A stretch of 29,123 nucleotides of DNA, taken from IMG/VR virus record IMGVR_UViG_3300006875_000101, positions 1 through 29,123 of that record, one strand, 5' to 3'. Below are positions 8,409 through 23,364 of the stretch, in pieces (positions within the stretch are counted from its first letter, which is position 1; each line of letters begins with the position of its first letter). The notes under the pieces were generated by a model. That model made no database searches. It was not told where the DNA came from and saw only the letters and a list, made by a program, of their open reading frames with translations. The position numbers were made by a program, and so were the translations under genes. Source of the DNA: a virus.

Positions 8409-8698
8409 AAGAAATTAGTGATTGCCCTGGCGGCGTCTGCCCTGTTCCTTGGGCTGTCAAAGAAGAACCTCCTGTAATCAAGGAGGATGTAGTCAATCAT
8501 CCTTCTCATTACACAGATGGCGGAATCGAATGCATCGAAGCAATTGAAGCTCAACTGACTTTAGAAGAGTTCCAAGGTTATCTGCGCGCTTGCTGCGTTA
8601 AATATCTCTGGCGTTATAAACTTAAGGGGAAACCGCTTCAAGATTTAGAAAAATGTCGGTGGTACCTAGAACGCCTAATGCAGACTTTAGAAGACTAA
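8213..8698 (+). CDS. DUF3310 protein (T7 gp1.7-like nucleotide kinase family)
   Basis: 161 residues. The C-terminal ~70 residues from VVNHPSHYTDGGIECIEAIE through the aromatic block ACCVKYLWRYKLKG to KCRWYLERL match the DUF3310 family, to which T7 gp1.7 (a nucleotide kinase) belongs. The N-terminal ~75 residues are a Gly/Thr-rich linker (TGTGTGGAGGNGTD) that overlaps the previous ORF in another frame. ATG at 8213 is the only in-frame start after an upstream stop. With dCTP deaminase nearby, a nucleotide-metabolism role fits. Kinase activity is known only for some members, so it is inference here. The HNH gene begins inside its last codons. Confidence 0.7.
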   Translation: MRRGDSKAEPGTRGGTSWNDGLHSFDGGGISDGSVATPEGTGTGTGGAGGNGTDALGKTSWFAPIEEISDCPGGVCPVPWAVKEEPPVIKEDVVNHPSHYTDGGIECIEAIEAQLTLEEFQGYLRACCVKYLWRYKLKGKPLQDLEKCRWYLERLMQTLED

Positions 8699-9123
8699 AT
8701 TTAGAAGGTCGTCCTTTTCGTAAAGGAGACGTACGAGAGGACGGCTTTATTTTTGCATGTTATGTTAAAACACAAATTTTAAGTAATGGATTTTACAAAG
8801 AAAAATGGCTTTCTCCAGAAGCCTACAAAAAACAAATGCAAGATCAACGTAAATCTGGTGATGAATGGAGAAAGAAACGCAGCAAAAACAGAAGGAAGTT
8901 AATTGACCAAATTAAACTATCAAAAGGTTGCTTGCACTGTGGCTATAAAAGCCATGCTGTTGCACTTGATTTTGATCATTTAAATCCTTCGGAAAAAAGA
9001 TTTAATATTAGCCAATACTTTGTGTTTGCATCGACCAAAGATCTAATGAAAGAAATTGCAAAATGTCAAGTTTTATGTGCAAACTGCCATAGAGTAAAAA
9101 CACAACAGGATTTAATAAATTAG
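8653..9123 (+). CDS. HNH homing endonuclease
   Basis: 156 residues. A basic N-terminal half is followed by a zinc-type HNH fold: CLHC (93-96), DFDHLNP (106-112, metal-binding His) and CANCH (142-146), the classic cysteine pairs flanking the beta-beta-alpha-metal centre. Such proteins cut a specific DNA site and spread their own gene into related phages. The start lies inside the DUF3310 coding end (46-base overlap) and the stop overlaps that of the convergent NblA-like gene by 4 bases, a tight insertion between two genes. Base composition is visibly more A+T rich than the DUF3310 gene. No intron core is visible around it, so it is freestanding. Confidence 0.85.
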   Translation: MSVVPRTPNADFRRLNLEGRPFRKGDVREDGFIFACYVKTQILSNGFYKEKWLSPEAYKKQMQDQRKSGDEWRKKRSKNRRKLIDQIKLSKGCLHCGYKSHAVALDFDHLNPSEKRFNISQYFVFASTKDLMKEIAKCQVLCANCHRVKTQQDLIN

Positions 9124-10531: not shown

Positions 10532-10827
10532 TTCGTTTTGTGACTCCAGTACCGTGCCGACATCTTATCTGGATTGGGATCTTGAGCGTTATGTCGGGCG
10601 TAATAAGAACGCTTTCGTGCTTTATCTTTGGCACTCTTTGGATGTTTCCCAGCGCCTTCTACACCTTGTTGACCAAACCTGATGATACGCTCCTCTCCTC
10701 CCTCGCAGGCTTTAACGATATGGCTCTTAGTCTTATGCCCAGGCGTGCGTTGCGGCTTATTGCAAGCCATCTTATCCTTCTGGTATCGCTTGGCTGCAGC
10801 TACAGCTTTCCTTGGTTTGTCCGACAT
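10525..10827 (-). CDS. Small basic phage protein (DUF6321-like pattern)
   Basis: 100 residues, very basic. From about residue 27 it follows a pattern I know from small conserved phage proteins: KPQRTP...KACEGG, then RIIRFGQQG, then KRSYYARHNAQ and a terminal MSARYWSHKTKW. I believe this family carries the label DUF6321, but am not certain; the function is unknown and nucleic-acid binding is guessed from charge. Its first 56 bases overlap the end of the HNH endonuclease gene, and no ribosome site precedes its ATG, so it may depend on translation of that endonuclease gene or have lost its original leader when the endonuclease gene arrived. Confidence 0.6.
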   Translation of the reverse strand: MSDKPRKAVAAAKRYQKDKMACNKPQRTPGHKTKSHIVKACEGGEERIIRFGQQGVEGAGKHPKSAKDKARKRSYYARHNAQDPNPDKMSARYWSHKTKW

Positions 10828-11197
10828 AATTAATATGAACTAAAGAATGGTCTCCTTCTCTTTCCCAGTTCAATACTTGGAAGGGATCTTGGTCAATCCA
10901 TCTTTCAATTCTATTGAGCCTAGCCTTGGAGAAGAAATCTTGTTGTAGATACCATTCGTGCAACTTATAAGAAGCTTTGGACGTATTACAACGCCGGCAT
11001 GCTGGCACTAGGTTTTTACGAGTTGTTTCTCCAGATTTATAACGTGGTACAACATGATCTAAACTCGTGGCATCTTCACCGCAATATGCGCATTGGTGGT
11101 TCCAGGATTTATAAATTTCGTCTCGAAAACGTTTCTTTGCTAGTTTTGGAGTGACTTCAACGAGTAAGGCGATCGGCTCATGCTCGCTGTAGTACAT
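10772..11197 (-). CDS. HNH endonuclease
   Basis: 141 residues. The central ~45 residues are a textbook HNH nuclease: CAYC (36-39), SLDHVVPRYKSG with the catalytic His48, then NLVPACRRCNTSK (62-74) with the second cysteine pair and metal-binding Asn/His positions. The last ~55 residues form a helix-rich tail typical of cyanophage freestanding HNH proteins. It probably acts as a homing endonuclease; a role in packaging, known for some HNH proteins beside terminases, is unlikely here because the terminase is 15 kb away. The 3' end runs 56 bases into the next gene. No intron core is visible at its flanks. Confidence 0.85.
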   Translation of the reverse strand: MYYSEHEPIALLVEVTPKLAKKRFRDEIYKSWNHQCAYCGEDATSLDHVVPRYKSGETTRKNLVPACRRCNTSKASYKLHEWYLQQDFFSKARLNRIERWIDQDPFQVLNWEREGDHSLVHINYVGQTKESCSCSQAIPEG

Positions 11198-16664: not shown

Positions 16665-17180
16665 TTAAAGACATTCTAAATCAAGACATGCAAACTCTCT
16701 GTAAAAGAGCTTCTGGGCATCCAGGGCTGCTTTTTTAGCTTCTTCCTCTGTTTTAAAATTCCCGACTGTAATTCGTTTACCTTCAAGCGTTACCCTAACT
16801 CTATATAACCCTGTGTCTTTTCTTTGTGAATAACCTACAAAAATTTTATTATAGTTATTTTCGGCTCCTTTAGCTAAACGCAGATTTTCCCAACGATTAT
16901 CTTTTGGGTTTCTATTCTTGTGTTCAACTAATAAAACACCTGGATCCTCACCGGTCATAAGAAACCAAGCAATTCTGCTTACGTAGTAACTTTTCCCTTT
17001 ATGTTTTATAACCCATGTTTTTCTTCTCTCCGGACCTCCTAAAGAGCCGATTGGTTTGTTTAATTTTTGCTTATCCGCTTTGCATCGTGATTTAATTAGA
17101 ATTAAATCACCTGTATCCGGAAGATATCTGTAGTATTCTCTTAATTCTTTTAAGTCCGGTAACGGTGCCGGAGCAACCAT
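16665..17180 (-). CDS. HNH homing endonuclease with AP2 domain
   Basis: 171 residues from the ATG at 17180. Residues ~66-112 are an HNH_3 type nuclease (VSRIAWFLMTGEDPG then EHKNRNPKDNRWENLRLA, with catalytic-type His87 and conserved Asn residues). Residues ~114-163 form an AP2 DNA-binding domain (GLYRVRVTLEGKRITVG, EEEAKKAALDAQ). This HNH plus AP2 arrangement is typical of phage and plant-like homing endonucleases. A TTG-initiated extension to 17222 exists but would start upstream of the promoter described at 17202-17210. The gene is A+T richer than its neighbours and lies between two virion genes without intron signs: a freestanding mobile gene. Confidence 0.85.
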   Translation of the reverse strand: MVAPAPLPDLKELREYYRYLPDTGDLILIKSRCKADKQKLNKPIGSLGGPERRKTWVIKHKGKSYYVSRIAWFLMTGEDPGVLLVEHKNRNPKDNRWENLRLAKGAENNYNKIFVGYSQRKDTGLYRVRVTLEGKRITVGNFKTEEEAKKAALDAQKLFYREFACLDLECL

Positions 17181-17201
17181 GCTTTTAATACGTGTATCAA
17201 T

Positions 17202-17210
17202 ATTATAGCA
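17202..17210 (-). promoter_or_regulatory. Extended -10 promoter for the HNH/AP2 gene
   Basis: The minus strand reads TGCTATAAT here: a perfect TATAAT preceded by the TG of an extended -10 element. Transcription would begin about 15 bases before the ATG at 17180, giving a very short leader. No good -35 is seen, which extended -10 promoters can tolerate. It supports 17180 over the upstream TTG start. Confidence 0.5.
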
Positions 17211-17222
17211 TACACGGATCAA

Positions 17223-19708: not shown

Positions 19709-21702
19709 TCAAATAGTGCCGTCATCGGAGACAAAGCTGAACGCGGTGGTCACAAAATCCTTATTCAGAATTTCAAAGCCAGCGTAAAGTTGCCAGATCA
19801 GGATGATGAAACGGCTGAAGTCATCGTTGTTGTTGATGAGCACCTGAGCATTCGGGCCACCAATGCCCACGCCGATTGCTTGAGGACCGAAGAAGTAACC
19901 TTGAGCAACTTCTTGACTGGAGAAGGTATTTGCACCATCGCTTGCGAAGGTTGCAGACACATTCTTGGTTGGGAAGTTGGTCGACTCGAAGAACTTCACA
20001 CCCTCAAACTGAACGCCAGTCGGCATCACGGGCTCACCAGCCAGGAAGTAACCCTGACCAGCTTGAGGACCCATGTAGAAGCTGGCGTTATTAGGCATCA
20101 TGGGATTACCCATGTACATGCCTTGGCCAGGATTGCCGCTGTAGCGTGCGATCTCACGGAAGTCTGGGTCACGACGCAGATGCATCATGAAAGTAGGATC
20201 GCAAATGCAGCGATACAGACCATCAGCGAAGGTCGGCACGTTGCGCTTACGCAGATCCTTAACAACGGTCAGCAGGTCGGTACGCACCTGGAACTGCTGC
20301 ACCTGAGCTGCATATTCAGCAGCGGTGTAAGCAATCGAACCGTTAGCAGCTTTGTTTTTGCCACCGGGGAAGTAGTAACCACCCTGGGTGCTGGAAGCTT
20401 CACCATTAGCTTCAGCTTTGGCAAGTTCGTCAATGAAGACGCGGTCGCGCCACCGGCGGTAGTCATCCAGCAGCGTCAGGCTACCGATGGACTGGTGGAA
20501 CATGTTAAGGTTGCCAGAGTCCAGCAGCAGGCGCTGAGCCGTGATCAAGGTCTCGCGGGCAATCTTGAAGGTGCTAGGCTGGGTCGGATCACCCGGATCT
20601 GCAGGGCCAGTGTATTCCTTAAGCACCACCAGGACTTTCTCCTTGGTGATGTTACGGCTGTTAGCGGTACCGATGGTCTGATCGGCAATACGCTCACGGC
20701 TGTCCTTTGTACCAGGGGTGCCCCAGAACTTATACCTATCCAACTGGACCGTTTGACCAGGCTGACGAGTAAAGTCGTGAACGACCACAGGCTCGACTGC
20801 CATTTCTGCGATGTACGCAGGGTGGGGACGGTAAAGTTCCGCACCCAAGATTTTTGGAAAATCGTTCTCCTGGTCTCTAGTTTCTTAGAGGGGTGGACTA
20901 TCTCTTCATCCCTGTGGGATGCCGGACGCTAAATCTGGTATTACGTAACAAGGTCGTGTTACAGCCAGTAGTCTCTGCACCTTCCAATCACGCTTGACTG
21001 GCTTGGCTCAGGATTACCCTCGTCTTTACGTTAGGGCTTCCCTGAATTCATCCGGTTTGCACTCATCGATTGCTCGGTGAGGTGACAACGTTGAGCGTTC
21101 AGTTGAGGCATGCTATCATCTGGAAACTTGTTTATGAACAACATGGATCCAAAACTTGTTCCCGGATTTGGTAATCTTTACTTAACAGAAGAAGGAAAAG
21201 CTTTTGAAAAACAACTTGATCCCGACAATCAAGAATATTTTTTAGAGATTCCTATCAGTTCAACCAGTGCTTATGACCGTATTTCAGTTCTTGTAAATGG
21301 GAAGAGGAGGCGTTTTCATCTTCATGTCTTGATGGCTGTTGCCTTTTTGGGATTAGATCTGCGTTCTCATGGAACCAGTAACTTTTCCCTTCAGGTGGAT
21401 CACAAGGATAATAACAAGAGAAATAATTGTCTTGATAATCTTGAGATCGTTACCAAACAAGAAAATTTAACAAGAGCCTGGAAGAGCGGTTGTTATATAA
21501 ACAATGGCTTTGCCAGTAAAGGGAAACCGAAAAAATCTTTGAGAAAGTTTTCTTCGGATGACGTGACTCAGATTAAAGCTTTAAAAGAAGCGGGTCTTTC
21601 TTATCGAAAGATTGCTGAAAAGTTTAACTGTAATCACGGAGCTATTTACCAAATCTTGAAGGGTCATACCTACCAGGATCTGAACTAGCTATCAATGAAC
21701 AC
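19709..21702 (-). CDS. Major capsid protein, split by a group I intron
   Basis: Proposed two-exon gene. Exon 1 is GTG TTC ATT (21694-21702), 10 bases after a strong GGAGG at 21712-21716. Exon 2 is 19709-20869. The joined product is 389 residues, MFI-ENDFPKILGAELYRP onward. The intron-less frame starts only at a TTG (20848) with no ribosome site, and upstream codons ENDFPKI continue in frame into the intron's 3' end. The protein looks like an HK97-type capsid protein by position (after portal and scaffold), its size and its strong codon bias; motifs include HDFTRQPGQTVQLDRY and RRDPDFREIARYSGNPGQGM. It forms the head shell. Unspliced mRNA would stop after five codons, so splicing is needed for expression. 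Confidence 0.85.
21091..21119 (+). promoter_or_regulatory. Sigma-70 promoter for the intron-borne HNH gene
   Basis: TTGAGC (21091-21096), a 17-base spacer, then TATCAT (21114-21119) preceded by TGC, giving an extended -10. The predicted start of transcription is near 21126, just before the ATG at 21134. It fires rightwards, opposite to the capsid gene that hosts the intron. It also shows that the ATG at 21110, inside the promoter, is not the start. Confidence 0.65.
21134..21688 (+). CDS. Intron-encoded HNH homing endonuclease (antisense to host gene)
   Basis: 184 residues from ATG at 21134, chosen because a promoter covers the upstream ATG at 21110 and GGA lies ~9 bases before. Residues ~45-111 are an HNH nuclease: a beta segment with RRRFHLHVLMAVAFLG, then VDHKDNNKRNNCLDNLEIV (88-106), with catalytic-type His90 and conserved Asn residues. 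Residues ~139-178 form a helix-turn-helix DNA-reading domain (SSDDVTQIKALKEAGLSYR, NHGAIYQILKG). It should cut capsid genes that lack the intron so that the intron is copied in. It sits inside the P1 loop of the intron, on the opposite strand, ending 5 bases before the 5' splice site. Confidence 0.88.
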   Translation: MNNMDPKLVPGFGNLYLTEEGKAFEKQLDPDNQEYFLEIPISSTSAYDRISVLVNGKRRRFHLHVLMAVAFLGLDLRSHGTSNFSLQVDHKDNNKRNNCLDNLEIVTKQENLTRAWKSGCYINNGFASKGKPKKSLRKFSSDDVTQIKALKEAGLSYRKIAEKFNCNHGAIYQILKGHTYQDLN

Positions 21703-21711
21703 TTTGGTTTA

Positions 21712-21716
21712 TCCTC
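21712..21716 (-). promoter_or_regulatory. Ribosome-binding site of the capsid gene
   Basis: The minus strand reads ACTGGAGGAT, a perfect GGAGG core, placed 10 bases before GTG at 21702. No ATG lies in range, and the intronless capsid reading frame has no such site, which is why the exon 1 start was placed here. Confidence 0.75.
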
Positions 21717-21742
21717 CAGTGTCAGTGTTTTTATCGGGTGAA

Positions 21743-22437: not shown

Positions 22438-23364
22438 TCACTCCATCACGAAGAGTTTATTGGACACAACGTTGGGCTGAGCCTGGTTCAGAACGCGCCA
22501 TGCATTCTGGGGGTCACGAGCCATGATGTCGTTGAAGGTGCCCCAGAAGTTGGTGGGCTGCTGAGGAGCAGCTGCAGCAGGGGGAGCAGGGAATTCACTA
22601 TAAGAATATGGATCCACTTGCTCAGTTGGATAACCATAAGCTTCAAGGTCTCCCTCGCCTTCATGCACAGGATACGGACCTTCGGGACCAAAGAACCGAA
22701 TGGTGTAATCGCTCAGCACGTCAGGGTTAGTCAGAATCTCGTTATAAGCAAGATTCTCGGTGTGCTCATTAGTAGCAAATTCAACATACTGCTTGAGGGT
22801 ATCGGTCATTTCCTGACCCCAGGTAACAGCGCTATCCAGCAGACCTTCGAGTTGAAGGGCGTAATTATTTAGAATTGCGGGAGCTTCGCTTCCGAACGCT
22901 GCGATTACTTGCTGGCTTTCCTGGCTCAGACCCTCCGAGTAGGTTGGGGAAGAGCTGGGCGAGTAACCCTGGTTGGTTGACCAGGTCTGCGGAGCCGATT
23001 GTTGCGTAGCTGGGGCGCTCGCTGAACCGTAGTTGGCCGGGGCGTAGGTCGTCGTCGGAGCTGACGGTTGACCCTGGAACGGGGATTGAACTGGTGCGCT
23101 CAGTAGATTCACTACTTTGTTGAACGCCGATTCCCATGGGTTGCTCTGTACTTCCGCCGGTTGGTATTGGGGGGCGTACTGAGTAGGGCTCGAGGGTTGG
23201 TAAACCGGGGCCGCCTGAGGTGCTGCCACCTGGTAATTCACCGGGGCTGCTTGGTACGATACCGGGGCTTGGCTCGGCTGGTAAGACGGAGTCACGTAAC
23301 TGCTCGGCGCTACTGCCGGAGTCGGGCTCGTCTGTGGGATCGATTGGACGGTAGCGTCCTGCAT
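22438..23364 (-). CDS. Scaffold-like protein overprinted on the portal gene
   Basis: 308 residues. The N-terminal ~140 are low-complexity, Pro/Gln/Tyr/Ala-rich (VSYQAAPVNYQVAAPQAAPV). The C-terminal half is helical and acidic (ALQLEGLLDSAVTWGQEM, EGEGDLEAYGYP) and ends WRVLNQAQPNVVSNKLFVME. Location between portal and capsid, disorder and acidity suit a scaffold that guides shell assembly. The ATG is preceded by AAAGGAG at a 7-base spacing. Its first 166 codons lie inside the portal gene in the +1 frame. It could instead be an internal head protein. Frame and ribosome site are seen; scaffold function is inferred. Confidence 0.7.
   Translation of the reverse strand: MQDATVQSIPQTSPTPAVAPSSYVTPSYQPSQAPVSYQAAPVNYQVAAPQAAPVYQPSSPTQYAPQYQPAEVQSNPWESAFNKVVNLLSAPVQSPFQGQPSAPTTTYAPANYGSASAPATQQSAPQTWSTNQGYSPSSSPTYSEGLSQESQQVIAAFGSEAPAILNNYALQLEGLLDSAVTWGQEMTDTLKQYVEFATNEHTENLAYNEILTNPDVLSDYTIRFFGPEGPYPVHEGEGDLEAYGYPTEQVDPYSYSEFPAPPAAAAPQQPTNFWGTFNDIMARDPQNAWRVLNQAQPNVVSNKLFVME

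Follow-up and report, generated by a model that had tools for sequence, protein, structure and literature searches.

A putative mobile group I intron directly after the start codon of a cyanophage major capsid gene, with a homing endonuclease gene on the opposite strand

The interrupted capsid locus

The DNA analysed here, called the window throughout, is a viral stretch of 29,123 nucleotides (IMG/VR record IMGVR_UViG_3300006875_000101), in which the major capsid gene lies on the minus strand and is divided into two very unequal exons. A Shine-Dalgarno sequence (GGAGG, 21713–21717, minus strand), which is retained 5′ of the GTG in intron-free relatives, precedes an exon of four codons including the start codon (GTG TTC ATT GAT, encoding V F I D; 21691–21702, minus strand); intron-free alleles have identical or synonymous codons here. 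This is followed by a group I intron of 824 nt (20867–21690, minus strand), which starts AGCTAG and ends ACCAGGAG, and by the second exon (19709–20866, minus strand), which matches the major head protein family phrog_1357 (E = 2e-16). The predicted spliced protein comprises 389 aa and begins MFIDNDFPKILGAEL.

The protein encoded by exon 2 shares 88% identity with a coding stretch in Synechococcus phage S-EIV1 (KJ410740) and, judged by the capsid, which is the gene compared, the virus is a lake cyanophage of the S-EIV1 lineage. In the S-EIV1 reference (KJ410740.1, 2989–4143) the major capsid frame, with its GTG start, is not annotated as capsid; the annotation gives instead a hypothetical protein on the other strand (AHV82227.1) together with a C-terminal fragment (AHV82228.1).

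Read without splicing, the capsid frame meets an in-frame TAG at codon 6 (21685–21687, minus strand), leaving VFIDS before the stop as in 70 of 79 alleles, and all 79 terminate by codon 11. A preliminary description of this DNA had likewise held that unspliced translation stops after five codons and that the capsid frame of exon 2 lacks a start codon; both points are borne out, the start being the GTG of exon 1 by comparison with intron-free homologues. The stop forms part of a CTAG palindrome, one strand of which ends the unspliced capsid frame after VFIDS while the other ends a gene running antisense through the intron.

This antisense gene, which had no place in the earlier account of the intron, occupies 579 of its 824 nt (21110–21688, plus strand) and lies within the P1 loop. 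It encodes a predicted homing endonuclease with HNH and helix-turn-helix domains (HNH_3, E = 3e-8; HTH_38, E = 2e-5; phrog_59, E = 2e-27), related to the HNH homing endonucleases of phages and alignable with I-HmuI (1U3E) over 135 residues (E = 1.2e-6). The open reading frame of this homing endonuclease gene (HEG) extends for 192 aa from 21110; the ATG at 21143, which would give 181 aa, is the likely start because the preceding residues vary in the alignment and one allele has GTG at that position. Each of the 71 full-length copies examined has an open frame and, with a dN/dS of 0.106 (0.075 in the capsid gene), the HEG is by this measure under strong purifying selection. No convincing promoter was found for the antisense HEG, the best match (21091–21119) being no better than those in shuffled sequences and its −10 element, judged by eye, not being conserved in relatives.

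Elsewhere in the window, further HNH or HNH-like frames stand free between genes, at 16665–17222 (minus strand; HNH_3 with a weak AP2 match), 10772–11197 (minus strand; HNH) and 8653–9123 (plus strand; HNH-like by eye, with no Pfam match). A tRNA-Leu (gag) called by ARAGORN at 23183–23275 (plus strand) runs antisense inside a Pro/Gln-rich coding frame and was set aside as a probable false call.

Allele states among related capsid genes

Of the 80 capsid genes nearest to this one in IMG/VR, 54 are intron-free and 26 carry an intron at the identical site; the S-EIV1 gene is intron-free and reads through the exact junction. A typical empty allele reads GGAGG-n10-GTG TTC ATT GAT AAC GAC TTT, and the intron-free homologues have the Shine-Dalgarno sequence, the GTG and the peptide VFIDNDFPK exactly where the predicted join would put them. 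Since these relatives read through the site, the capsid gene can be taken to start at that GTG, with the intron just 3′ of the start.

Three allele states occur: empty, intron with HEG, and an HEG-less intron of 229–325 nt. The HEG-less introns measure 256–277 nt in a close set, 325 nt in L162 and 229 nt in L165, and several retain the final HEG codons (ATCCTGGTA), as expected after deletion of the gene. Introns L083, L088 and L165 bear no trace of these codons; the very short P1 loops of L083 and L088, with no remnant of an HEG, possibly represent the state that preceded HEG gain. A distant allele, L165 (7223–7451, minus strand), belongs to a capsid gene with 69% identity and an ATG rather than a GTG start. 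Its 229-nt intron occupies the same site, and P1 there is a simple hairpin, AUGUUUAUUGAU^AAGUAAAGUUGUCA (UGAU^AAGUAAAGUUGUCA), with a loop of 10 nt; the junction is the same as that of the window intron and the protein would start MFIDNDFPK. When intron copies were sought at other sites with the core motif, every capsid-type match fell at this same site, and matches elsewhere were to more distant introns only.

A tree of 140 capsid genes was calculated with the first 300 nt of exon 2 left out. Intron presence changes on it at least 29 times, 16 of these changes being forced by well-supported (starred) branches, in a count that does not separate gain from loss and that recombination within the capsid gene could inflate. 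HEG-less introns arise in six places, and sisters only 0.7% apart may differ in state, L002 having the intron and L003 lacking it. Sister pairs of mixed state diverge in the upstream 190 nt by a mean of 0.17, against 0.06 in pairs of the same state, with a smaller excess in the downstream 150 nt (0.038 against 0.014). This flank divergence fits co-conversion during homing, a signal that is suggestive only, because the pairs are not mutually independent and the upstream flank varies in its own right.

Scattered presence of this kind is the pattern expected of active homing. It might instead have arisen by repeated losses from an ancestor that had the intron, recent homing playing no part and the antisense frame being a passenger, and the indifference of the tree counts to gain or loss, together with the antisense placement of an HEG that has no clear promoter, would suit such a history. 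We consider it quite unlikely, nonetheless: it would need at least 16 precise losses, near-identical sister phages differ in their flanks mainly beside the intron, and strong purifying selection on an HEG that every full-length copy retains intact requires ongoing use. Recurrent homing is accordingly our preferred reading of the distribution, and it is considered further below.

RNA fold, guide and splice junction

Searched against Rfam, the window gives a single match, to the group I intron model Intron_gpI (RF00028), on the minus strand at 20874–21115, covering the whole length of the model with 93.5 bits (E = 4e-23) against a gathering score of 50. The match and the covariation, counted over 52 distinct alleles, uphold the complete core from P3 to P9 with P7.1 and P7.2 that the preliminary description had drawn on this strand. 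The named helices are paired in 91–100% of cells, and two-sided compensatory changes occur in seven of them: the P1-extension stem, P2, P6a, P7, P7.2, P8 and P9.

All of these elements lie on the minus strand. The P1-extension stem pairs GUUCAG (21680–21685) with CUGAAC (21097–21102), changing on both sides in relatives, for example to GCUCAG/CUGAGC in L088. P2 is a hairpin, CUCACCGA-GCAA-UCGAUGAG (21062–21081), with compensatory changes at five of its eight pairs; its consensus is CUCAYCGA-GNAA-UCGRUGAG, and its arms co-vary as CUUAUCGA/UUGAUAAG, CUCAUUAA/UUAAUGAG and CCCA/UGGG. The guanosine-binding helix P7, placed by the Rfam alignment, pairs GACUA (20969–20973) with UAGUC (20900–20896) and shows a U-A/C-G exchange in relatives. 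Between P7 and P3′ stand P7.1 (CUGG/CCAG) and P7.2 (GUAACA/UGUUAC), the latter with two-sided changes at five of six pairs, and the presence of both places the intron in group IA2. The P9 hairpin, CUCUA-AGAAAC-UAGAG (20875–20890), changes on both sides at three of five pairs.

P1 itself is short, 4 bp plus the extension; neither it nor P10 displays covariation, both being invariant among close alleles. The two are formed by an internal guide, CGUUGUCA (21083–21090, minus strand), in which GUCA pairs with the end of exon 1 (UGAU, P1) and CGUU with the start of exon 2 (AACG, P10). Against UGAU^AACG the guide makes eight pairs of eight, which was achieved by no other junction offset tried and by 30 of 20,000 shuffled versions of the region, and it is unchanged in the 52 distinct aligned alleles. 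U21691, the last base of exon 1, stands opposite the G of GUCA, so that a U-G pair marks the splice site; the intron's last base is G20867. The predicted junction is GTGTTCATTGAT^AACGAT, and the joined frame, GTG TTC ATT GAT AAC GAT, matches the intron-free alleles exactly. The limits 21690–20867 (824 nt) and the four-codon exon 1 follow from the pairing of this guide and are settled by the minimal intron of L165.

The preliminary description had placed both splice sites 3 nt away from these, closing exon 1 after three codons (GTG TTC ATT) and opening exon 2 with GAG, and had taken GATGAGTG (21067–21060) as the guide in a P1 of 6–9 bp. The same intron would then be delimited as ATT^GATAGC...ACCAG^GAGAAC, with VFIENDFPK as its product. 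Such a junction keeps the frame, leaves an intron ending in G, and in the window sequence allows 8–11 contiguous pairs to be drawn (UGUUCAUUGAU with AUCGAUGAGUG) with a U-G pair at ATT^G. We regard it as very improbable all the same, given that the GATGAGTG stretch is the 3′ arm of the covarying P2 hairpin, that its 6-bp pairing with exon 1 is broken in 12 of the 52 alleles, comes with no P10 and has no counterpart of the same form in L165, and that codon 4, an Asp codon in each of the 46 intron-free alleles of the tree set, would become Glu, Val or Ala. Alignment of the N-terminus with intron-free homologues, which the preliminary description had proposed as a check, thus confirms an intron near the start and contradicts the junction claimed for it. 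GAG is the end of the intron, a triplet that varies among alleles between GAG, GTG and GCG; the introns of L083, L088, L104 and L151 end in GTG or GCG. A further idea considered in this analysis, that an 11-bp P1 hides the start codon, falls together with the rejected helix.

Least credible of all is that the core is a relic, left unspliced, with the capsid starting within exon 2, for example at TTG 20848: the exon 2 frame is indeed open from there, but compensatory changes maintain the core helices, the N-terminus VFIDNDFPK is conserved with its Shine-Dalgarno sequence and GTG in intron-free relatives, and the junction is precise even in the distant L165. The Rfam match, the precisely empty alleles and the covariation together lend strong support to a group I intron that interrupts the major capsid gene immediately past the start codon.

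Predicted homing cycle and comparison with known introns

The sequences themselves show the fold and its guide, the precise junction, the intron-free sites and the conserved endonuclease, and we think it very probable that the locus holds a mobile, self-splicing, IA2-like group I intron, situated between capsid codons 4 and 5 and homing by means of the antisense HNH/helix-turn-helix endonuclease. The RNA would fold so that CGUUGUCA aligns exon 1 (..UGAU) with exon 2 (AACG..); guanosine would attack after U21691 and exon 1 would then attack after G20867, and ligation is predicted to restore GTG TTC ATT GAT AAC GAT, the sequence of the intron-free gene. We infer that self-splicing started by guanosine restores the capsid message in this way. 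During co-infection, the endonuclease would cut or nick intron-free alleles, and repair would copy the intron into them. A cycle of gain, decay and loss may therefore turn at this one site, loss of the HEG leaving an HEG-less intron, loss of the intron an empty site, and the empty site allowing a restart.

Understood thus, the locus would provide a natural, population-scale record of the homing cycle at a single nucleotide position in a much-needed phage gene, where empty, endonuclease-bearing and endonuclease-free alleles coexist among near-identical cyanophages. It would also offer a natural test of group I intron splicing where hardly any upstream exon is available for translation. With a 5′ exon of 12 nt in total, a ribosome initiating at the capsid start site would necessarily sit over the 5′ strand of P1. 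Capsid splicing might conceivably compete directly with translation initiation, the intron serving as a switch that sets the timing or dosage at which capsid is made, a proposal that we hold to be unlikely. In T4 introns, a ribosome translating the upstream exon aids splicing, which is the opposite of the competition proposed here. Reviews describe translation of the upstream exon as usually aiding the splicing of phage introns, and a stop codon shortly 3′ of the 5′ splice site as usual among them (PMC3073962).

Introns in L107, L131 and L141 (contigs of up to 245 kb) and in L100 have a P4–P6 core motif in common with the capsid intron but belong to a different host gene, lying 5′ of a PHP-domain frame that is probably DNA polymerase III alpha of large phages. 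The intron encoding I-HmuI resides in the DNA polymerase gene of phage SPO1. I-HmuI (PDB 1U3E) is likewise a homing endonuclease of the HNH type from a group I intron in a phage, although its sequence matches the endonuclease predicted here only remotely. The intron of the freshwater cyanophage Pf-WMP3 belongs to group IA2 with P7.1 and P7.2, has a 4-bp P10, is associated with the HNH endonuclease I-PfoP3I and is missing from a sister phage (PMC3428280). That intron lies in a DNA polymerase gene and is spliced both in vivo and in vitro (PMC3428280), whereas splicing of the capsid intron is inferred from sequence.

The preliminary description had thought an insertion so near the start of a capsid gene unusual among phage introns. 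The very short 5′ exon is indeed distinctive, but capsid-gene introns as such are known, both in mycobacteriophage LittleE and, as cited in the LittleE paper, in lactococcal phage Tuc2009 (PMC3706429). LittleE offers a close parallel, having an intron of approximately 820 bp in its major capsid gene, very likely of group I, with an HEG on the opposite strand and intron-free sister phages; its splicing has been demonstrated, and is efficient late in infection (PMC3706429), where ours is predicted. The LittleE endonuclease is of the LAGLIDADG type, the phage is of another lineage, the insertion point is internal to the gene, close to the capsid processing site and not 12 nt away from the start codon, and a single phage is concerned in place of the dense natural polymorphism seen here (PMC3706429). 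A capsid intron with an antisense HEG was therefore already known from LittleE, and what distinguishes the present case is its position at the start codon, its lineage and its abundant natural variants.
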